DNA of 64,000 bases from Branchiostoma floridae (lineage: Eukaryota > Chordata > Leptocardii > Amphioxiformes > Branchiostomatidae), in NCBI RefSeq assembly GCF_000003815.2, contig NC_049986.1, positions 13,944,465 through 14,008,464 of the forward strand. Reading direction: 5' to 3'. Numbering within the stretch: position 1 is the stretch's first letter; each line of letters opens with the position of its first letter. Below the pieces are notes generated by a model. That model ran no database searches. It saw only the letters and a program-made list of their open reading frames with translations, and was not told the DNA's origin. A program made the translations under genes and the position numbers. Shown here piece by piece: positions 18,158 to 56,357 of the stretch.

Positions 18158-19993
18158 TTATCTGCCGAATCTATTGAATATAGAACGTGTGTAGTCTCTT
18201 CGTAATACTGGGTCCCAGCGTTGTCGTTCCGTCTTCATTTGGTCACAGAGTCGTTTATCAACACGGAAAAGTGGACCTTTGCTTGACCTCACTGTATAAT
18301 TTGGATTCCTTACCCTAGAATGGCAAATTCTACTCACAACAGTATTCGTCTTTTTGTAGTTTTGCAACTCCTTCTGAAATCCACTCCCCTCTTTTGTTAT
18401 TTGTCTTATTATTACTTCATTGAAGTGATTGTATAACAAATAATCAGCATAATTATTTTCTATGAAATTTTGTCGCATCTTGTCAGTGATGTTGTATTGG
18501 GTCTTGCCGTAATTCGACTTCTTGGACGGTTTGATGTTGTCGTAAATAATGTCCTCCACCGACCAGCACATGCGCCGTCGAAGAAGGACCATTGATTGGT
18601 CAAAGTGTTCCAGGATCATGACCAATGAGAAGTCTTTCTCGATGTCCCGGATGAAATTTTCAACGGCGGTCTTGTTTTCGTAATCCTTTTTCTGTAGACC
18701 AAGGTCCCTTGACATACAGTTCCGGTTACAAATGTGATCAACAAAATCCTGTCGTGTAGAAGGGCGATAGAGCTTGTCCCATTTCTTTGGATCTTCCAGG
18801 TATGTCAGCACCGGTGGTTTTGAGCGAGTCGCTTCCCTCAAGCCTAGGAAATACCTCTCCATCCTGAAGTATTTGAATGAAGAGCGAAGTCTTGCCAATG
18901 GTTCTCTTAAAATGGCCACATACTTGGTGTTCTTGGGCATCAGATTGTGAAAGCCCGTCCTATTGTAGATGGCGTGGTGAGCGAAGATGTTGGGGTACCC
19001 TCTCGGTAGGAACAGGTAGTCGCGCTCAGTGATGACACCAGCAGTCCCGATGGAAGGGCGGTCCCGTTCCCGGGGCAGCGCGACCGTCAGGAGATGTTTG
19101 TGTCCGTACCTGAGGAAGACTTTCTGCACAGTGGTGGACCCGCACTTGTGCACTTTCATAAATGCCACGTTGGTTTGGGGTTGGCAGGGCGTCGGCGTCC
19201 GCTCTTCTACATGTTTGGAGCTAGAAAACAACAAAATAAGTAACTTTATTGCGCAACAGTTTTACAAGGTACAAAGCATGGCATCTACTGATACATAACT
19301 ACAGTTCTATAAGGCTAATCTATTTAATACAAGGGTGTATAGCATACTGCATGGGGTGAAAATGGTCTTTTATATTTCCTATTTTCCTATGTACATGTAT
19401 ACCAAAATAAAGGACAGCGGTCAGTTTAGTAGGCTCATACGACAGCAAAACGAACGTTATCTAGATGTTTTGTGAGTTATTGTATTGAACTGGAGGCGGA
19501 TGTGTGGGGCACCTTTGTGATATTCCGATAAGGACAGAACGTTTTTGACCTCGTCGTCTTCAAATGCAAAGTTATGGAAGCTTTTAGACAGTGTTCTGAA
19601 CATTTGAATATTTGACGTTTGCAATTCTGTGGTATTACCGATGTTGTATATCACCTAAATACGTTGTACCTTGTTTCAAATGAATAAATATAGGTACACG
19701 AACGAATAAAGGTGTAGGTGTAGGGCTATCGACCAATTGAATACGTGTTACAAAGTCGATCAATGTCTAATTAAAATGATGATACAACATGTAGCTTCAC
19801 TAAAAAATGTAGAATTATTGCATTACCTGTTGGTTGCTTGTGGCGGTAGCCACCCTTTTAGCCTTGGACGAGTTTCACGGGAAGTTGACAGTTTCTCCTG
19901 CTGGCATAATAACACCAGCAAACCGACGACAAGCAGAGAGGTCATGAACAGGTAAAATCTCAAAAGGCTCTGTCGTGTCCACAGACATGTCAT
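18158..19993 (-). CDS. Galactose-3-O-sulfotransferase family protein (paralog 1)
   Basis: Two exons: 19827-19993 (start at 19993, donor gtaatg) and 18158-19220 (acceptor ttttctag), phase 2, joining to 409 aa. A type II Golgi enzyme is expected: residues 13-30 are a signal-anchor (FYLFMTSLLVVGLLVLL), then a short stem. The 5'-phosphosulfate loop KVHKCGSTT starts at residue 78 (compare LKTHKTASST in vertebrate GAL3ST). FAHHAIYNRT lies near 135, and the 3'-phosphate-binding segment ILREPLARLRSSF begins near 159. The family transfers sulfate from PAPS to the 3-OH of terminal galactose on glycolipids or glycoproteins; the acceptor here cannot be read from sequence. Length is close to vertebrate GAL3ST1-4. 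A second paralog with the same intron position and phase lies just upstream. Upstream in-frame ATG at 20077 is less likely as the start. Confidence 0.85.
19221..19826 (-). other. Intron of sulfotransferase paralog 1
   Basis: 606-bp phase-2 intron between the signal-anchor exon and the catalytic exon. AT-rich, with no repeat recognised. Confidence 0.75.
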
Positions 19994-22192: not shown

Positions 22193-23824
22193 TTAATGTA
22201 TGGTTTTCTTCATAGCTTTGTATCTTTTGCGAAACATCTTATCCCAAAATTCCCGTTCTTGACGTATCAAGGTGCAGAAATGGTTGTAGATGCGGATTCG
22301 TTGGTTCCACTGACTCGGTCCCAATATAAAACTCTTCGGTCTTGTTACTGTGTGACAGTTTCTACCAATGACGGCGTTTATTCTCTTGAAATGTTGCAGT
22401 TCCGGATCAAAATCTTTTCCTTCTTTCTTAATTATGTCCAAAAGAACCGTTTTGAAATGCTTGTACAGTAAATAATCCGCATAATTTTCCTCAATGAAAT
22501 TTTGTCGTCTGTCTTCTGTGATGACGTCACGTTTTCGGTACCGCGCCTTTCTTGACCAATACAAATTGTCGTAAATGATATCCTCGAAAAGCCAGCACAT
22601 CCGACGCCGTAACAGGATCAATGATTGGTCTAAATGCTCCAGGATCATGACCAATGAGAAGTCTCGTTCAATACCACGGATGAATTTGTCTATGGCGGTT
22701 CTGTTATCAAAATCTTCCTCGGGAAGGCCAAGATCTCTTGACATACAATTCCTAATGCAAATGTGATCTGCAAAATCTCTATCCTTGGGTGGGACATAGA
22801 CACTGTTCCACTTTTTCACATCATCCAGATAAGTGACAACTGGAGAACCTTGTCCTGTTTCATTCATAAGTCCCGGAAAGTATCTTTCCATCCGAAAGTA
22901 GTGGAATGCTGACAACAACCTACTGACAGGCTCTCTGAGCACTGTTATAAACTTAGTGTCTTTCTTCATCAGTTGCAGTAGCTGAGTTCGGTTGTAGGTG
23001 CCGTGGTGGGCGAACAGGTCCCACCGAGCTCCCCCTGGGGACGGTTCGTAGTCGTCACGGGTGATGAGTCCGTCGTGCCCGATGGTGGGGCTGTCACGTC
23101 CCCGGGGGAGCGCGACGTTCAGACGATGGGTGAACCCAAAACGGAGGAAGCTCCTCTGCAGGGTGGTGGAGCCACACTTGTGTACCTTGATGAACGCAAT
23201 GCTTGTGTGGGTGACGCAGTTCGAAGCGCCCGTGGGCCGGACGGTCTGTACAATAGTTCTGTGGGAATGAGTGGTGCTGCCAGATTCTACAGTCGTCCAC
23301 GATCGCGATGTGTTGTCGATGGCGTCATATTTCCCTCTTTGGGTGGTCTGAAGAACTCTGATGAGGGGATCAACAAAAGCAATCTAATTACAGAAATCCC
23401 TGGTACATAATTTTCACAGAAGGAATTTCAATTAGCTAAATGTCTCTCAAAATATCATCATTGATGCATGTTAAGAAATCTAACTTAAAGCGGTACTTTT
23501 CGTCTACGATATGCGAGTGATGGCATCTTCGTGGACTTTATATCTGCATGCAAGGGCAAATACAATACCTGTTTTCTTGCAACCATCGTGTTACCGTCTG
23601 TCTAAATGTGCAAAAACATTGCCATCTTTTATCTATGTAGAACTTCCTTGTGCAAAAACATTGCCATCTTTTATCTATGTAGAGCTTTCTTACTTGCTCG
23701 TGGAAGTTTCCTTGCCGGCCCGCCTTGGTTGGCGCCATGTCACGGACCTCCACTGCAGCTGTACGGAGAAGACGGTGTACGCCAGCAGCAGCACTAGCAC
23801 CACGGGCAGGGAATACTTCCACAT
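22193..23824 (-). CDS. Galactose-3-O-sulfotransferase family protein (paralog 2)
   Basis: Two exons: 23694-23824 (start at 23824, donor gtaaga) and 22193-23357 (acceptor cccctcatcag), phase 2, joining to 431 aa. An acceptor at an upstream ttag is possible but breaks the frame. A signal-anchor (YSLPVVLVLLLAYTVFSV) starts near residue 4 and is followed by a longer Ser/Thr-rich stem (about residues 56-90). PSB loop KVHKCGSTT starts at residue 101, FAHHGTYNRT follows, and the 3'-phosphate-binding segment VLREPVSRLLSAF starts near 183. Expected to be a type II Golgi PAPS-dependent sulfotransferase acting on galactose 3-OH; acceptor unknown. Long blocks match paralog 1 nearly exactly (CMSRDLGL, FSLVMILEH, LLRRRMCW, EDIIYDN), so the two are tandem duplicates. 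The catalytic exon has no ATG near its 5' end, which supports the upstream anchor exon. Confidence 0.85.
23358..23693 (-). other. Intron of sulfotransferase paralog 2
   Basis: 336-bp phase-2 intron at the same place relative to the anchor as in paralog 1. Contains a 42-bp tandem duplication next to the donor. Confidence 0.7.
23607..23690. repeat. 42-bp tandem duplication beside a splice donor
   Basis: TGTGCAAAAACATTGCCATC begins both 23607-23648 and 23649-23690; only two positions near the end differ (GAACTTCCT versus GAGCTTTCT). The second copy runs into the donor of paralog 2 exon 1. Confidence 0.9.
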
Positions 23825-35317: not shown

Positions 35318-38300
35318 ATGGCAGAAGGACCTCCGCGTGGACAGGCCGAGTCGCAGTCCTGGGCAGAGTGGACAGAACAGCTCCAGGCATACGTGGCCTG
35401 GGTCAACTCCCAGCTGAAGAAGCGCGCCGGATGTCGTATCGTGTCGGACCTGCGGAGGGACATGCAGGACGGGGTGGCATTCGCACAGCTGGTGGAGATT
35501 CTGTCAGGTGAGTTCTGCTGTTGTTGATTGCTTGTATTATTGTGTTGTGATGATGTCAAAGTCTACAGACAGATCAGAAGTAATTATTGGGATGACAACT
35601 ACAGCTTTGTCACACAGACCATGTCTCCAAACTGTTATTTGAGTACTGGTAATAGTATATGCTAAAGTGCTTTTACAACTTACAGAATATATAATCAGTG
35701 TTCCATCCTCCTTTATTACATAAGATAATCAGTGTGTAAATTGGAAGGTTCAAAGATCAACAATTAGTAAGGTATGTGAGATAACAGCCCTATCTTTTGT
35801 TTGATTACTCACCGCTATTACTGTAGTAGAAAGGCTCTTTGAAATTGTTGGCTAATTGAATGTAATACAGGCAGTACAGGGGTAATTATTTACAATAAGC
35901 AGAGTATGTCATTATGCCCAAAGAAGCCGGCAAAGAAGCCATGAAATGTTATGTATGTAAATGATTTCTCACAGCGTTCAGTATAATTCTGGGCTTTATC
36001 TACTTATGGTTCCAGTGAGTCACTGAGTACATATCACTATTTGATTTTTAATGATGTGTGCATGTACATGTAGTTTTGTATCTACATGTATATATTCATT
36101 CAAACTGCAAAACAGCATTTGAAAGAAGGTATTCTTTTTTTGGGTACATGTATATGAAAACGTCAACATTTACAGTCAGTAAAGGTTATTTGTCAAGGGA
36201 AATGATTCAGTCTTAATGCTCTACATTATGTAAGTCTGGTTCTTGATAAATGTTGCCTTTTCTCAAGTAAAGTATCTAGCCTGCGACTATGCAGCCCTCC
36301 TGACTGTTGCCTAGTAGCCCTTTCATCTTGCTATGATGACCCAGAATTACTTTAGTGTGCCACCCGCGTTGCTTGGTGTTTTGCAGTCTCTTCCTTCAGA
36401 AAGGAAACAAAGCTAAATGCTCAGACATGTCTTCATTATTTACAGTTCCTTGTGTAATGGTAAAAAGCAGGAGAACAGTTTATAAAGCTAGGACGTTAAC
36501 AGCTATTCATCTCTCAGTTACAATTATTCCTATAGGGGTCTTTGAGAAACTGACAGGTCCCACCCCCTAGGTTGCTATTGTTGGCGGCTTGCTTGTATCA
36601 AAATGTCAGGCATATCAAATGAAACTGCTATCAATGGTCACGTCATGGCTGACAACTCTGCAAGGCGCAGGGAAAGGACGGCATTATGTTCCTGAATGTC
36701 AGGGCTTAGCCTGCTGAATGCTGAATGGGAGGCTACGAATGTGATACCCTTTGTTTGTGGGATAGGTGTGTGTCTGCTTATACTTGTAGGTATTTGTGAG
36801 GGAACACCTTGTGGGGGAGTGGCTGTGAATGTGATACCTGTTGTCTATGGGATACTGGTATGTGTAGGACTGCATGATATGTAAGGTATACTATTAGGTA
36901 TAACAACTGCAACAGTGAGAAGTGCAGTGATTGTGGCAGCCATTGTCAACTGTCGCTTTCATTGTCTGCAACAAGTATGTAAGGAAATATGTGCTGTTAT
37001 GAAAAGGCAGGGTCAAGGACGTGAAGTTTTTGACTTCCAAACTGTTTTGATAGCAAACACAAAGTAAAGATGCATTTTAAAATAAGAATAAGAATGATGC
37101 ATAGCTAAACTAGCTAGCTGAATGTTTGACTCATTTGAATGGTTGGCTAATAACATTTAATATGGTCAGTAAGTCTAAATGATTATTTACAATTGGTGGA
37201 GTGTGTCATTATGCCCAAGGGCAAGAGGTCAAGTGAAGTTCTGCATGTAATGATTTCCGAGAGTTTATAAATTTAGCCTCTTGCAACTTTTATTTCAGGT
37301 TAGTACTCATCTCTACTAGTTGATATTAGATCTAAACATCATTAAATGATCTAATGATGTTTGCATTTGGAACACATTGTATAGTATCATGACAAATAAG
37401 ATAATTGTTGATGTGAAAATTTGCAGGGTTCATGAAAATTTATGGTGAACAGGGTTCTAGTCAGGATTTCATTTTAGCGTAGTGGGAATGGTAGGGAAGG
37501 GAGGTCTTGGCCCTTCCACGGTGAGATTTTGAAAATGTAGAGTTAAAAGTTGGCACTCTGTTAAAGTCACATGTAATTTGAAGGATTTTCTGGTCAGTTT
37601 TAAGGGTCATATCATCATTTTTCATTGTTCAGACATTGATTAGACATTGTTGAACAAGCAAATGATAGCAAAACACCACTACACTAGTTGAAAATTAGCG
37701 TAGTGGCCCTTATTTTAGCGTAGTGGTCACAAATTTTAGCGTAGTGGCCCACTACGCTAAAATGCACTAGCTAGAACCCTGGTGAAGTATCCGGGCTCAA
37801 ATTACATTATTTGGTAAAGATACATACTGGGTAGGTGCAGATGGGAAAAAAGTACTTTATCTGCTTAGTCAAATCTTAAGAGGCAAATGATAAAACTTTT
37901 TTTATAAGGCACTTCAAACTAGGGGGCCCAGACCTATGTACACCACTTCTCTACAAGTCCAAGACTTCAAATTTAAGGAAAAATTATCAGCAATGATAAA
38001 ATGTGCCAAAAAAAAAATGAATCTCAATACACTAAGATCATACACAGACAAACTGGGCGGACCATTTACCATGCAAAAGGCTGCAGAAATAATTCATGTG
38101 TCCTGTTTCCTTGCAGGTGAAACCCTCCCCCATGTGGACTACTCCCCCAAGAGCCTGGGCACCATGAAGCAGAACGTGGAGATCGTCCTACAATTCATGC
38201 AGACCCACCGCATCCGCATGCACCAGACTTCAGCCAAGGATATTGTGGAGGGAAACCTGAAGGCCGTGATGAGACTCATCCTGGCGCTGGCCGCGTACTT

Positions 38301-40098
38301 CAAACCCAGCAGCGTGAAGTCATCAGCCCAGCAGCACTCGCGATCGCAGCAGAGGAACACGTCGGTCGCGGCTGCTGCAGGTGCCGCGGCTGCATTGGCG
38401 GATGCCCGTAAGGACGCGGCAAGTGCCGGGCGGCAGTACCACAGTAGGAGGGAACCACGGTCCCACGGTGATGCCGGACACCACAGGTCTCCTGCCTCCA
38501 CTCCTGACAGACAGCCTCCTAGGTTTGTTCAATTGTTGTTTCTGAATTGGATAGATTCTGGTGTATTGATGCATACATGCTTTGCAAGGTTGTCAACTGG
38601 TAAGAAATTGGTGTATATAAGAAAACAAAAATAAATCATTCTAATACCAGTAATAATGATACATGTATGAAATCCGAAGATAAGTCAGTGTGCAAGGAGG
38701 TTGTCTGACTTGTTTTCATGACAAGAAAGGTTTTCCATTGATTTTTATCCACCTTTAGATTTTGATCTGCCTTTAGCAGATCACCTGACTAATGCACTGT
38801 TCTTTCAACAGATAAAGTACTTTGAATGCTTTTTTTTATTTGACTCTCCTTTGTTCCCCAGGTATGAAGATTTGGTCAGATCCCCTCCTGCTAGCATGTC
38901 CTCTCAGTCAAGGCCCCCTACCCAGGAGCCTGATGTGCTTCCCCGTCGTGACTCCGACAGCACGCAAGGGCTGAGCTCTGGTGATGAGGGTAGCAGAGCC
39001 TCCTGGCAGGAGTTACTGGAACAGCACCTTGACCTTGAGAGTCAGATGGAGGAGGCAAAGGAGACTGTTGTGAAACTGCAGCACTTACTCCTGCAGGGGG
39101 AGGAAGAGGGGGAGGGGGTGAGACAACTGCTGGAGGGGGTGAACCCTGAGGAACAAGTGGTGCTCCTGCAGAGCAGGTTAGATCAGCGAGAGGTGGAATG
39201 TGATCACCTGAGGAAGGACCTCTCCCGTGCCAAACAGGAGAACATGAACCTGCACGGGACGAAGGTGGGGCTTCAGTCACGGCTGACAGAACAGGACACT
39301 TCCCTGCTGGAGATGAAGAACGAGCTGTTGAGGCTCGGTTTCGTCATGGAGCAGTTTGAGGCCGACAAGGCAGAGTTGCAGCGGAAGGTTGACGACAAGA
39401 ACAAGATGTTAACCGACCTGCGCAGACAGCTAACAGAAAAGGACAGACAGTTGGACGAACAGCAAGCCAAGTTGGAGGAGGCAGAACGTAAACTTTCCCA
39501 GGCAAACTCCAGTAAAACGAAGGATACCGTCTCCAGTCCTGTGTACAACGGTGTGCCAGCAGCGCTTCCTCCTGGGGAGGAACTACAGGTGGTACGGGAG
39601 GCGTTACGAGGTTTGCGTTCCTGTTTCCAGGTCAATAACCCACAACATCACACCATAGACACGCTGGAGCAGAGCATAGCAACTCTCATGGAGAGGCTAC
39701 GATTCCTGGAGTCACAGAGACTCATAGCAAGCCAGAAGGAGAGCCTGGCCAACAGGGTGAAACCTGCATCACCCAAATCACAGGACAGTGTGCTGTCGCC
39801 AACGTCACGACAGCGCAGCAATGGTGTGGAAAGTAATGGTTCCACACAAGGGACCAAGATTCTGTACTTCACCGAAAAGACGGTAACTCCCTTCATGACT
39901 TCAATAAGTAAAAAGCTAGGAGACATTACATTAAGAGACTTCAAGGAAGTCTTTGACAGACAAGGGAGCTTTAGATTCCACTTCAAGGCGCTGGACCCAG
40001 AGTTTGGAACAGTGAAGGAGGAGGTGTGCCAGGATGAGGACATCATCCCTGGCTGGGAGGGCAAAATTGTAGCCTGGATAGAGGAGGTCAGGCCATGA
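35318..40098 (+). CDS. DIXDC1: DIXDC1 (Ccd1-like): CH, coiled coil, DIX domain protein
   Basis: Three coding exons: 35318-35507 (phase 1), 38117-38522 (phase 2), 38862-40098; total 610 aa. The first exon probably starts at 35205 after a gtcttttacag acceptor; MAEGPP is then the first in-frame ATG, so the longer upstream frame is not used. A calponin-homology domain spans about residues 19-130 (LQAYVAWVNSQLKKR through RMHQTSAKDIVEGNLK and LILALAAYFKP). An Ala-rich linker AAAAGAAAALADARKDAA follows. A long coiled coil runs from about 247 to 415. The C-terminal DIX domain (about 530-610) has ILYFTEKTVTPFM, HFKALDPEFGTVKEEV and IPGWEGKIVAWIEE. The family co-polymerises with Dishevelled and Axin through DIX and activates Wnt/beta-catenin signalling, with CH/actin contacts in the long form. 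The order matches the vertebrate long isoform. All sequence after residue 199 is one exon. Confidence 0.95.
35508..38116 (+). other. DIXDC1 coding intron 1
   Basis: 2.6-kb phase-1 intron splitting the CH domain. Contains the TTTTAGCGTAGTGG element (37449-37783). An ORF at 37936 reads into exon 2 but its first part is intronic; the acceptor ccttgcag at 38116 and continuity of CH sequence decide this. Confidence 0.8.
37449..37783. mobile_element. Foldback element with TTTTAGCGTAGTGG repeats
   Basis: Ends are CAGGGTTCTAG at the left and CTAGAACCCTGGTG at the right. The 14-base unit TTTTAGCGTAGTGG occurs at 37472, 37713 and 37734, a partial copy near 37695, and an inverted copy (CCACTACGCTAAAA) at 37749. 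About 335 bp, no coding capacity, inside a DIXDC1 intron. Confidence 0.75.
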
Positions 40099-45962: not shown

Positions 45963-46845
45963 TCAGCATGCTTCCATGAACCGCACACGCTGGGCTTTCT
46001 TCTCGGGCTGCGGGTGGCTTCTACTCCGTAAGCGCCCTTTCAGCGACCCCCTGGCCTTTGGCATGTTCTCCTCTGTTAGTCTTGGCCCCGCCAACAGGGC
46101 GCGTTCTTGAAATTTGTGGTTACTATTAAGAGATTTACTGTTTGAAGTGCGTTGGCGGGGTTCCACGCTGGGGCCGCCATTTTCCAGCCCTCCCCCTCTT
46201 GCTAGCTTGAGCTGTGACAATCCACTTACAAGTCTATCATTAGCAGCCTTCAATGCTTCCACTGTCTTCTGTTGCTGTTCTATTATTCTGTCCTTCTCTT
46301 CTATCAGTCTGTCTTTATGCTTGAGTTTTCCTACGATCACCTTCTGCTCCTTCTGAAACTGTCCCTCCAAGAACATCAAGTTAGCCGCAATATCTCTGAG
46401 CTGCTTGTCATTCTCTAGTTTCTGTCTGTGCAGTTTATCCTCCCCTTCCTGCAGTCGTAGCTTCCAGGCCGCGATCAGCTGTTTGGTGTGTTTCTTCTGC
46501 AGGTCCATCTGATGGCGAACCGTCACTTCGCTCTCCTCAGCCGCCTGGAGTTTTTCCTTGAGCGAGGAGACCTCGTCTCTGAGCGCCGTGACTTCCTCCT
46601 GTAACTGCACAGGTAGAGTTGGGGTTAGATCAGCGCTACCTTCCCCCATCTTGTTGGGCAATGGAGGTAAAAGAAATGCCTAGCACGCAAACACGTACGA
46701 ACGTAAACCTTACGGCCTCACGTTACCCCGCCTAACAAAAGGATCAGTCGGCAAAAGGCGTGTACGAGACAAACAGGGCGGTAAAGATTAATCCAGTACA
46801 AAATGTCTGTACACTTACCTGTTCCAGTGATTGAGCGGAAGCCAT
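45963..46845 (-). CDS. Short coiled-coil protein, unknown function
   Basis: Two exons: 46819-46845 (MASAQSLEQ, donor gtaagt) and 45963-46604 (acceptor ctgtgcag), phase 0, joining to 222 aa. The open frame also runs back to an ATG at 46661, but strong splice signals and continuation of the heptad pattern as SLEQLQEEVTALRDEVSSL favour the spliced form. Residues about 5-145 are almost continuous coiled coil, with a Glu/Lys-rich run HKDRLIEEKDRIIEQQQKT and ANDRLVSGLSQLK at its end. The C-terminal ~70 residues are Ser/Arg/Lys-rich and disordered, ending KAQRVRFMEAC. No signal peptide or membrane segment. I do not recognise the family; a scaffolding role is only inference. Confidence 0.75.
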
Positions 46846-52700: not shown

Positions 52701-52745
52701 AGATTTGGTGAAAAGGTGAAAGCGGAACTTCCGTGCACAACATTG
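52701..52745 (+). other. Upstream echo of the RTK coding sequence
   Basis: GAAAGCGGAACTTCCGTG occurs here and again inside the RTK ORF near 53267. Read in the same sense it gives VKAELPC against EKAELPC in the gene. The frame then hits a stop within a few codons. A decayed partial duplicate is possible. Confidence 0.4.
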
Positions 52746-53123: not shown

Positions 53124-56018
53124 ATGTCAGTTAACTACTTGCGCCGACTCCTGCTTCTGCTCGGGGTTTACAGTCTACCGTGTCCGGCCAGTGAAGACCG
53201 CCGCAGCGTTTCTGTGCCTGAAAATGCCAAGCCTGGGACAGAAGTCCTCAGTTTGCTGGGGATAGAGAAAGCGGAACTTCCGTGTGTGATCGTGGAGGGA
53301 GATCCGTACCGTCGGTTCTACCTGAGTACGAACTGTACAATTGTGGTCGGCAGGGCGCTAGACTGGTCAGTACAATCAGAGTATCTTCTCAAGATTCGTG
53401 TTGGACAGTTTAAATATCCAAGTCACCGTGTCGTCAGCATTCACGTACACGTGAAAAACGTTCCAGGCTACCCTCCTGTGTATAACGACATGTGTGAAAT
53501 ACCGACCAGAGCTTTGGGGGACTCAGATGAATTTCTGTTAAGTTTAAGCATAAGTGCCCAGGTTGAGACGACTGTCGGGGATGTTCTTTTCGCTGAAAGG
53601 ACCTTTTCAAGACCTCTAGATCATTGGAACATGGATAATCCTACTTTTGTAATCAACATGGACAACAACTGCCAGCTTCACATAGCACTGGAAGTCCGTG
53701 GTCTAACCGACACCGCAGTCGCAGCAGAATTGTCACTGGCGAAACATCACGATCAGGATACATTTAAAGTTTCATGCTATGCTGAGTCTAACCATACATC
53801 TGAGCTCTTCATTGAGCTCTATCATGATGACGACGATGACAAAGATAAACTGCATCACCTAAAACAATACGTTCCGCAGGTTATGGCGAAGCTTAAGAAA
53901 GCACGTTTGATCTACTTAGTCTCCTTTGCATTTCCAACCAAAACCGCGACGAGATATAAATGTGACTTCCCGTCGTTGCGAAATCCAGTCAGATTCCGTA
54001 AACACCGTGACTCGATCGGTGCGATCAAAAATGTTGAGGCGGCAGCTGTGGTTTTGGCTCCAATCGGCTGCCCTCCGAGTAGATACGGGTTTCTTTGCGA
54101 CAAGAGCTGCATCTGTGAGAACGGAGCCCGTTGTCATGGTTTCAATGGTGCCTGTAAATGTACACACGGATGGCAAGGTGTGGCTTGTGACATCCCTAAA
54201 GCTGGTGTTTCGGCAACAACGACACCTAGCGACCCTGCTGATATCTACATCTCCACAAATGTCACCATTCACTGCAAGACCCATCACCTAAATGTCACAA
54301 CGTTAACACTTCGACTTCCAAACGGATCTGAGATTGTAAGCAACGTTACTACTCAACTAGACCAAACTGTCTCTAACATAGAATCTGAAGACAAAGGTCC
54401 CTATATCTGCCAGGTGCTAGACACCCATGGAAACGTTTTCAATGTGACAATTGTACTTGACATTGCCAAGTGCCCACCAAATCGAAAAGGCGACCTCTGT
54501 GATGAAACGTGTGATTGTCTCCATGGTGCGCCCTGTGACTGGCAGGCCGGCTGCGTCTGTCCGCCGGGGTGGACAGGAACCAGGTGTCAGACGACATGTC
54601 CGGACGGCACGCATGGCGAACGGTGCACGAAGAAGTGCTGCTGCCAAAACGGCGCTAGCTGTACCCCCAGCGATGGTATGTGTACATGCAAAGCTGGCTG
54701 GTACGGATCGGACTGTACCGTACCATGTCCGAGATACAGGTATGGCTTGAAATGTCAGGAGACCTGTACCTGTAAAAACAACGCCACCTGTGACAACGTC
54801 GACGGCAGCTGCACCTGTGCAGTGCCTTGGAAAGGGACGGACTGTGGCGAACTCCACGCATCTTCCCAACAGGGTGCAGTTCAACAGGCAAATGGATGGA
54901 AACTTCTTGTCGAAATCCTTGTTCCATTAGCCTCCGTGATTGTCCTGGTTGTTTGTGTAGCGACCATACTTTACAAAAAGCGCCTCCTGTGTGGCGTTGC
55001 CGCCGGTGCAGATGGGGAGACTGAAGCTCTGCTGGAGTTACAACAAGTGGAGGCTGGCCTGACACAGACCGTCCAACCGGGCTGGCTCAGCCGTTGGGAG
55101 ACGACGAGTCGTCATCTGTCTCTTGGTCACCTGGTAGGAATGGGAATGTTCGGACACGTCATACAGGCCAAGCTCAAGACACCTGCCGGTGAAATCACTG
55201 TAGCTGCCAAGGCGGTTCGTAGAAAAGACACACAGTGCTACCGAAACTTCTACAGGGAAGCGGCCATCTTGGTAGCTATACATGAGGACCAAAATCACGA
55301 GAACCTTCGCTCCAATATCATTCAATTGTTGGGGTTGGTGAACGAAACGTCGCAGAAATATATCCTCATGGAATACGCTTCTAAAGGAAATCTCTTACTT
55401 CTGTTGCGACAAGCGCGAAGGCAAAACGGCACCATATTCTTGCCATACAATCTCCGCTATGCTGTACACATATCCCGAGCTTTGCAGGAGCTCCAACGCC
55501 TGGCTCTCACTCACTGTGACGTGGCCGCTCGGAACGTCCTCATCACGGCTGACGATGTGGCCAAGTTGGCCGACTTTGGGCTTGCGCGAGATGTGTACGC
55601 CACTGTGCAGTATGTCACTGGCCACAAGAGAGAGCGTGCTAAGCGAGAAAACCTAGATGATGAAGTTTTCCCGTTAAACTGGATGTCTTTGGAGTCTTTA
55701 GAGACAGGCGAGTACACCTGTCAGAGTGACGTCTGGTCCTTTGGTGTGCTGCTGTGGGAGATCGCCACGCTGGGACGTGAACCGCGTTACGATGGCAACA
55801 ACAACCCGAGCTGCCTCCAGCTGGCACGGACACTCCGGAGGGGAGTCCGGCTGAGACGGCCTCCGGAATGTTCCGGAGAGATGTATGACGTCATGAGCTC
55901 GTGTTGGCAGGAACAGCCATCAGAAAGACCGGATCCGGATGTATTGGAGAAAAGACTACTGCAAGTGCGAAATACGATGATTCCTTGCTTATCTATTGAG
56001 AGGGAAACAACAGTGTAG
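53124..56018 (+). CDS. Receptor tyrosine kinase with cadherin-like, EGF and Ig ectodomain
   Basis: One uninterrupted 964-aa ORF. Signal peptide ~1-22 (LRRLLLLLGVYSLPCPA). Residues ~28-125 look cadherin-like (VSVPENAKPGTEVLSLLG, LDWSVQSEYLLKIRV, VSIHVHVKNVPGYPPVYND). A poorly defined region follows, with an acidic run HDDDDDKDK. An EGF-like module starts at C316; an Ig-like domain has C384/C429 and EDKGPYICQV; an EGF/laminin-like Cys cluster spans C450-C574. TM ~594-616 (EILVPLASVIVLVVCVATIL), then YKKR. Kinase: GMGMFG loop at 672, VAAK lysine 696, HCDVAARN with Asp 799 and Asn 804, DFG Asp 817, then WMSLESLETGEYT and SDVWSFGVLLWEI. Tyr-kinase hallmarks (AARN, activation-loop YVTG) are clear, and key catalytic residues are present, so activity is likely. 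HRD is HCD. The subdomain VIII text is closest to RET/FGFR/Tie types by eye. Ligand unknown. A 5' noncoding exon is possible (ctacag just before ATG). Confidence 0.9.
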   Translation: MSVNYLRRLLLLLGVYSLPCPASEDRRSVSVPENAKPGTEVLSLLGIEKAELPCVIVEGDPYRRFYLSTNCTIVVGRALDWSVQSEYLLKIRVGQFKYPSHRVVSIHVHVKNVPGYPPVYNDMCEIPTRALGDSDEFLLSLSISAQVETTVGDVLFAERTFSRPLDHWNMDNPTFVINMDNNCQLHIALEVRGLTDTAVAAELSLAKHHDQDTFKVSCYAESNHTSELFIELYHDDDDDKDKLHHLKQYVPQVMAKLKKARLIYLVSFAFPTKTATRYKCDFPSLRNPVRFRKHRDSIGAIKNVEAAAVVLAPIGCPPSRYGFLCDKSCICENGARCHGFNGACKCTHGWQGVACDIPKAGVSATTTPSDPADIYISTNVTIHCKTHHLNVTTLTLRLPNGSEIVSNVTTQLDQTVSNIESEDKGPYICQVLDTHGNVFNVTIVLDIAKCPPNRKGDLCDETCDCLHGAPCDWQAGCVCPPGWTGTRCQTTCPDGTHGERCTKKCCCQNGASCTPSDGMCTCKAGWYGSDCTVPCPRYRYGLKCQETCTCKNNATCDNVDGSCTCAVPWKGTDCGELHASSQQGAVQQANGWKLLVEILVPLASVIVLVVCVATILYKKRLLCGVAAGADGETEALLELQQVEAGLTQTVQPGWLSRWETTSRHLSLGHLVGMGMFGHVIQAKLKTPAGEITVAAKAVRRKDTQCYRNFYREAAILVAIHEDQNHENLRSNIIQLLGLVNETSQKYILMEYASKGNLLLLLRQARRQNGTIFLPYNLRYAVHISRALQELQRLALTHCDVAARNVLITADDVAKLADFGLARDVYATVQYVTGHKRERAKRENLDDEVFPLNWMSLESLETGEYTCQSDVWSFGVLLWEIATLGREPRYDGNNNPSCLQLARTLRRGVRLRRPPECSGEMYDVMSSCWQEQPSERPDPDVLEKRLLQVRNTMIPCLSIERETTV

Positions 56019-56238
56019 ACCGCGGCACCCCTGAGGTGTCGCCAAAAGATACAAACCGAATACCATCCCAGTAACGCAGACTGCAACATTGGATGTAGGA
56101 AGTAAAATACGTAAGAAACGATATGTAAATGTTGATATCATTTCCGTCTCCATTTATTATGTTCATGTACACCCAAAATAACGCAGCTTGTTGAAGTTTT
56201 TCGTTGGGTAAGCCTCAAAGCAATGCATAGTCACTCAC

Positions 56239-56273
56239 GCACACACAAACACACGCACACACAAACACACACA

Positions 56274-56322
<49 letters not shown>

Positions 56323-56357
56323 GCACACACATTCACATACATTCACATACACACACT
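56239..56357. repeat. (CA)n microsatellite
   Basis: Mostly CA repeats with AAAC and GCAC interruptions; the central ~45 bp are pure CA. Confidence 0.95.

Follow-up and report, generated by a model that had tools for sequence, protein, structure and literature searches.

Animal receptor tyrosine kinases (RTKs) mostly form small, conserved families, and a gene of the lancelet Branchiostoma floridae raises the question of what kind of receptor could depart from this pattern. The gene lies at positions 53124-56018 on the plus strand of a 64,000-nucleotide stretch of contig NC_049986.1 (the window) and encodes a protein, P0001, in which a cadherin-like domain, EGF repeats and an immunoglobulin (Ig) domain precede a tyrosine kinase. 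The same receptor-kinase architecture, including a sharply bounded variable block, recurs at no fewer than 111 loci of the genome. On balance, the sequence evidence inclines us slightly towards the view that P0001 is a functional single-pass receptor of a diversified recognition family, which comprises at least 111 loci of shared architecture, many of them single-exon.

A single-exon receptor gene

Frame and domain matches identify P0001 as the product of a single-exon RTK gene of 964 codons. Its single unbroken open frame measures 985 codons from stop to stop, as compared with a longest frame of 213 codons in 20 base-shuffled windows. Gene-prediction artefacts are a known pitfall for lancelet domain novelties (PMC4967905, PMC6071037), an explanation which does not apply to one uninterrupted frame and was therefore ruled out for P0001. 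A second copy of P0001 was not found within the window.

The protein begins with a signal-peptide-like stretch (residues 1-23, 53124-53192), recognized by its basic start and LLLLLGVYSL core, which is followed by a cadherin-like domain matched by profiles (residues 27-125, 53202-53498), retaining the E of PEN and lacking the DxNDN calcium motif. Comparison with paralogues delimits next an unmatched variable block of about 190 residues (residues 126-314, 53499-54065). Profile matches then place a first EGF module (residues 315-359, 54066-54200), whose CHG-NGAC core is highly conserved throughout the family, and Pfam an Ig domain (residues ~366-448, 54219-54467; Pfam stretch 373-437). Three clustered EGF/laminin-type repeats, found by sequence and profile matches (residues 450-575, 54471-54848), lead to a putative transmembrane helix (residues 594-617, 54903-54974), read as a hydrophobic stretch followed by KKR. 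The tyrosine kinase domain (residues 657-942, 55092-55949) was assigned by Pfam, profiles and trees, and the protein ends in ETTV (56004-56015).

The individual matches differ in strength. The kinase matches Pfam at E 3.8e-59 over residues 666-942 and the Ig domain lies slightly over the Pfam cut-off, while the EGF matches of P0001 alone fall below it; the EGF model is matched at E<=0.01 in 25 of 25 family segments. Pfam scans found no fibronectin III (FN3) match and only one Ig domain in P0001 and in the family. The module order claimed by an earlier sequence-only reading, that is cadherin-like, EGF, Ig, EGF cluster, transmembrane helix and kinase, is borne out by these domain and profile matches, although that reading passed over the ~190-residue block (residues 126-314) between the cadherin and EGF parts. 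Its description of the kinase as complete holds apart from the arginine of the HRD motif, which is a cysteine; the catalytic loop is thereby non-RD, and this state and the PDZ-like C-terminus are features beyond those it listed.

A family of at least 111 loci

A kinase-domain search of the genome (513,431,437 bases) returned at least 141 matches, a lower bound with 134 of 1264 candidates scored. With P0001 as the query, 53 genome matches were obtained, the longest of which span the cadherin to the kinase part at 42-65% identity, and the nearest relative read is 63% identical to P0001. The catalytic-loop pattern HRD[VI]AARN occurs at 88 places in the genome and the non-RD pattern H[CG]DVAARN at 36, with 0 control matches. 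Within the 127 strongest kinase matches there are 75 RD and 35 non-RD motif places, 110 in all, and one further non-RD place in the C7 array brings the family to at least 111 motif-bearing loci on 18 contigs. This count excludes the 14 weakest of the 141 kinase matches, which are mostly exon pieces, as well as 13 RD-motif places that coincide with no kinase match and three matches with long frames that lack the exact motif (C12:921262, C1:2279023 and C1:3322976). Groups less than 100 kb apart hold 80 of the 111 loci, the largest having 11, 11 and 10 members. The guess that P0001 belongs to a lineage-specific expansion is thereby confirmed, with many of the loci standing in tandem arrays.

Many copies have long open frames. 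With 117 of the 127 matches tabulated, 77 motif-bearing matches carry open frames of at least 800 amino acids, and in two of these the match contains a stop. Furthermore, frames of this length occur in 41 of the 52 family loci read, P0001 included; a few of the 41 lack part of the start or of the kinase (L042, L046, L061, L039 and L054), and the set omits shorter frames and L052, the longest frame of which is not the kinase frame. Near full-length paralogues share the same module order along their whole length.

Tyrosine kinase activity is enriched among the genes that are dispensable in two lancelet species (PMC12373286), a pattern consistent with rapid gain and loss, the P0001 family itself being unnamed there. 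Domain combinations are also gained fast in lancelets (PMC4284660), and the main text of that paper contains no mention of 'tyrosine kinase'.

The cadherin-like domain

In P0001 alone, PF00028 is the sole Pfam match of residues 27-125 (E 0.0017; 19.2 bits, the cut-off being 28.8), and it spans profile positions 2-92 of 93. A PDB search with this region up to E 10 gave six matches, all of them protocadherins, the best at 0.0011. In the alignment of the region (A1), which consists of P0001 with 28 paralogues and excludes L042, truncated at its start, and L046, in which the region is absent, PF00028 is matched at E<=0.1 in 29 of 29 segments, the best at 1.1e-14. The family profile matched 181 PDB sequences, and among the best 60 of these 181, 58 are named as cadherin-type and two bear the name MCG133388, which is uninformative as to protein type. 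The proposed cadherin repeat is thus weak in P0001 by itself, where it stays below the cut-off, and firm across the paralogues.

Among the 29 segments, the E of xE[ND] is present in 29, an LDxE-like motif in seven, DxD in three and DxNDN in none, which indicates that this cadherin-like domain lacks the classical calcium linker. The place of the linker is taken by a stretch conserved in the family, YPPxYNxxCETP (CEIP in P0001). On the profile evidence, residues 27-125 are cadherin-like and not a classical calcium-binding repeat. Structure predictions made without an alignment for residues 24-317 and 24-131 reached a mean confidence (pLDDT) of 31.2 and 38.5 with no usable fold, and the profile evidence therefore stands in for a structural check of residues 28-125.

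Upstream of the gene, window positions 52718-52735 hold an 18-base exact echo of positions 53267-53284 in the cadherin region (E 0.013 against the window).

The variable block and the case for recognition

Among 30 members, Pfam matches to the block at E<=0.1 are limited to three families, each in a single member, and a PDB search with the block gave a single match at E 0.47 and none better. A second cadherin copy was considered for this part and rejected, as hhalign returned a probability of 0.2% when the block was compared with the cadherin alignment. The blocks of paralogues are 8-23% identical to that of P0001; they contain one invariant cysteine and two more that are nearly so, which points to a folded domain.

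The variability is concentrated in the block and has abrupt limits. Pooled over 17 disjoint close pairs, identity is 58% in the block, 78% in the cadherin region (15 pairs), 83% in EGF-Ig-EGF and 92% in the kinase, and the block is less alike than the remaining protein in 15 of the 17 pairs. In L055/L056, successive 25-column windows show 96, 96 and 64% identity, then 20-52%, and then 68, 96 and 96%. In addition, several pairs show a weaker dip in the Ig region. The block alignment (A2) omits L022, whose block is identical to that of L021. Shuffling of blocks between subfamilies was rejected, since the nearest neighbour of a block mostly belongs to the same subfamily as the nearest neighbour of the kinase, an agreement which fits rapid divergence or local conversion better.

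These features could be united in a receptor in which the variable block and part of the Ig domain form a ligand-recognizing surface, the cadherin and EGF modules, which vary less, serve as a scaffold, and signalling would be started by ligand-driven clustering. From sequence, the most likely role of the family would be recognition of many variable targets, be they microbial, self/non-self or chemical, and not of one conserved growth factor. If the block does bind ligands, a chordate would possess a large receptor-kinase recognition repertoire. A narrower version, which we put forward tentatively and regard as possible at best, is that a chordate germline repertoire of more than 100 RTKs, with a hypervariable domain set on a cadherin/EGF/kinase frame that stays constant, and with a non-RD branch, serves innate immune or self/non-self recognition; if true, tyrosine-kinase receptors would occupy a role held elsewhere by Toll-like receptors (TLRs), NOD-like receptors (NLRs) or allorecognition receptors.

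Several observations weigh against recognition as the role of the family. The block is identical in L021/L022 and slightly more alike than the rest in L061/L062. The ratio of nonsynonymous to synonymous divergence (dN/dS) of the block is below 1 in every pair in which it could be estimated (16 of 18), so that positive selection is unsupported there; the lone value above 1 (1.18) belongs to L018/L027, in the cadherin region. Silent divergence is itself raised, with dS higher in the block than in the kinase for 16 of 18 pairs. Diverged fourfold sites number 213/716 in the block against 124/650, 302/1434 and 358/2124, with the block highest in 15 of 17 pairs, and under a strict neighbour filter the contrast narrows to 97/430 against 84/524, 231/1250 and 329/2032. 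This raised silent divergence means that gene conversion, which would homogenize the flanks, or alignment error may explain part of the block contrast. Moreover, P0001 is a singleton in its genomic region, and non-RD members account for 36 of the 111 loci, a minority.

The main alternative draws on the same data and supposes a conventional family of growth-factor receptors acting in development or in tissues, tandem-expanded, in which constraint on a spacer-like block has been relaxed and no recognition role exists. The low block dN/dS, the strong conservation of kinase residues and the position of the kinase within the FGFR/RET/VEGFR/KIT/TIE group are all in keeping with it. Such a family is difficult to reconcile with a copy number above 100 and with variability so sharply bounded, and the conserved block cysteines speak for a folded domain in place of a spacer; taken together, we consider this explanation unlikely, but one to be kept in view.

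The non-RD loop and the C-terminal tail

The catalytic loop of P0001 reads THCDVAARN, with Cys798 (55515-55517) in place of the HRD arginine and the catalytic aspartate retained, hence non-RD. Counted by the exact pattern H[CG]DVAARN, from which variants would escape, 36 loci are non-RD; 34 of these have glycine and two have cysteine, namely P0001 and C13:12713798. Among the loci read, HGD is found in L049, L057, L058, L063, L064, L065 and L066. As the P0001 group and the L057/L058/L064 group meet in an unresolved fork, the arginine may have been lost once or more than once.

Loss of this arginine, together with the short or stop-bearing frames at several family loci, is what could be cited in favour of P0001 being a pseudokinase or a decaying copy, in which the change from HRD to HCD has abolished signalling. 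Such a copy would hardly be expected to keep 964 codons free of stops when even the nearest relative read is merely 63% identical, nor a kinase dN/dS of ~0.20 against L063. P0001 retains the catalytic Lys and Glu, the HxD Asp and DFG, none of which varies among the 23 rows of the kinase alignment (A4), whereas L034, which stands outside A4, has Asn for the catalytic Lys; furthermore, the arginine loss is common to 35 other loci. We therefore judge decay improbable. If P0001 is instead the functional receptor that we favour, its non-RD kinase might work at a low activity or at one independent of loop phosphorylation, possibly with a partner kinase.

The terminal ETTV resembles a class I PDZ ligand, as is apparent from the sequence and from the tails of paralogues. 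The pattern E[ST]x[VIL] ends 15 of the 41 long frames and [ST]x[VILF] 18 of them, in several subclades with differing preceding residues, which fits selection for a PDZ ligand; neither the L016-type clade nor L057 has E[ST]x[VIL]. In P0001, the tail would be bound by a PDZ protein.

Introns and the origin of single-exon copies

In the close relatives L065 and L066, a phase-0 GT...AG intron lies at a site which alignment equates with Q641|V642 of P0001 (55046-55047), and the matches of two further relatives are split at the same place. P0001 and L063, the latter adjoining L065 in one array, have no intron at exactly this site. Given the topology (P0001,(L066,(L063,L065))), in which the middle fork has a support of 90/80, the aligned sequences indicate at least one precise intron loss, or repeated gain, within this clade.

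No retrocopy marks were seen by eye in the flanks of P0001, no dedicated search having been made, and the similarity of these flanks to other loci is confined to stretches shorter than 100 bases. With intron-bearing copies standing beside precisely intronless ones, the origin of the single-exon copies is open to study.

Eight HRDIAARN places outside the kinase matches lie at C8:23483805-23774147. One of them, L067 (C8:23685600-23687200), is a short exon whose best listed matches are all members of the P0001 family, and this array may consist of intron-bearing relatives and represent a candidate parent type.

Other features of the window

A CA-rich microsatellite (56232-56356) begins ~200 bases past the P0001 stop codon. 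Elsewhere in the window, galactose-3-O-sulfotransferase-type open frames of 358 and 258 amino acids, both without a stop, lie at 18158-19234 and 22193-22969 on the minus strand. Frames with a partial CH domain and a DIX domain are found at 37936-40098 (+) and 45963-46661 (-), with a DAB2IP C-terminal match further on, and two neighbouring frames match COBRA1.

Kinase relationships and comparison with known receptors

A careful tree with 14 kinases from the family and 11 references unites the family in one clade (100/100), which joins FGFR1, RET, VEGFR2, KIT and TIE2 at 96/94. The approximately unbiased (AU) test rejects a union with FGFR1 (p 0.00278) and with VEGFR2 plus KIT (p 0.00275) and rejects neither a union with TIE2 (p 0.461, one TIE sequence) nor one with RET (p 0.107). 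The kinase phylogeny proposed as a check on the sequence-only reading accordingly places the family outside FGFR and VEGFR/KIT (AU p 0.003 each). The family and TIE2 both sit on long branches, and a false join between them is possible; among the 11 reference kinase sequences, RET and TIE2 were confirmed against the PDB and the other nine were not. An earlier kinase tree omits L039, L049 and L054 (match below 200 positions) and L001-L008, which repeat L009-L016. Against the PDB, the kinase profile best matches a chain labelled EGFR (9p9u), then FGFR3 and RET, and the EGF-Ig-EGF profile best matches the TIE2 ectodomain (5e-28), the alignments behind them (A4 and A3) having 23 and 25 chosen rows.

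TIE2 resembles the P0001 family in having an Ig domain followed by an EGF/laminin-type cluster. Its ectodomain runs Ig-Ig-EGF3-Ig-FN3, with further Ig and fibronectin III domains and without a known cadherin domain, whereas the P0001 family has a cadherin-like start, one Ig domain found and no FN3 match.

RET shares with the family a cadherin-like N-terminal part, and is among the best kinase matches. In RET there are four cadherin-like domains, besides a cysteine-rich one, and no known Ig domain or EGF array, whereas in the P0001 family one cadherin-like domain was found, followed by EGF-Ig-EGF. To our knowledge, Cad96Ca/Stitcher of insects lacks an EGF-Ig-EGF part, and the family is set apart from it by description only. 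That P0001 is a divergent RET or Cad96Ca orthologue is very improbable, since for all the likeness of its N-terminus, the RET kinase matches and the RET union p of 0.107, the best tree sets RET with FGFR/VEGFR/KIT (86/89), apart from the family, and a single cadherin-like domain without DxNDN leads into an EGF-Ig-EGF part nearest to TIE2. According to one source, the Ret family are the only RTKs with cadherin domains (PMC8662651), and another presents Cad96Ca/Stitcher as an RTK named for its cadherin domain (PMC11908783). Among the publications listed by searches for the P0001 family or its kind, none described this family; the amphioxus kinase survey of D'Aniello 2008 falls outside that scope, and may already have noted it.

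The non-RD loop invites a comparison of another kind. Plant non-RD receptors have Cys or Gly at the position of the HRD arginine, and the EFR, XA21 and IRAK types belong to another kinase lineage than the P0001 family, so any likeness between them would be convergent. Non-RD kinases are linked to innate immunity in plants and animals, and EFR, XA21 and IRAK-type immune receptor kinases have, like P0001, lost the HRD arginine (PMC8463890). This likeness is a parallel and not evidence of function; should the variable block bind ligands, the non-RD members would provide an animal tyrosine-kinase counterpart to the immune receptor kinases of plants.

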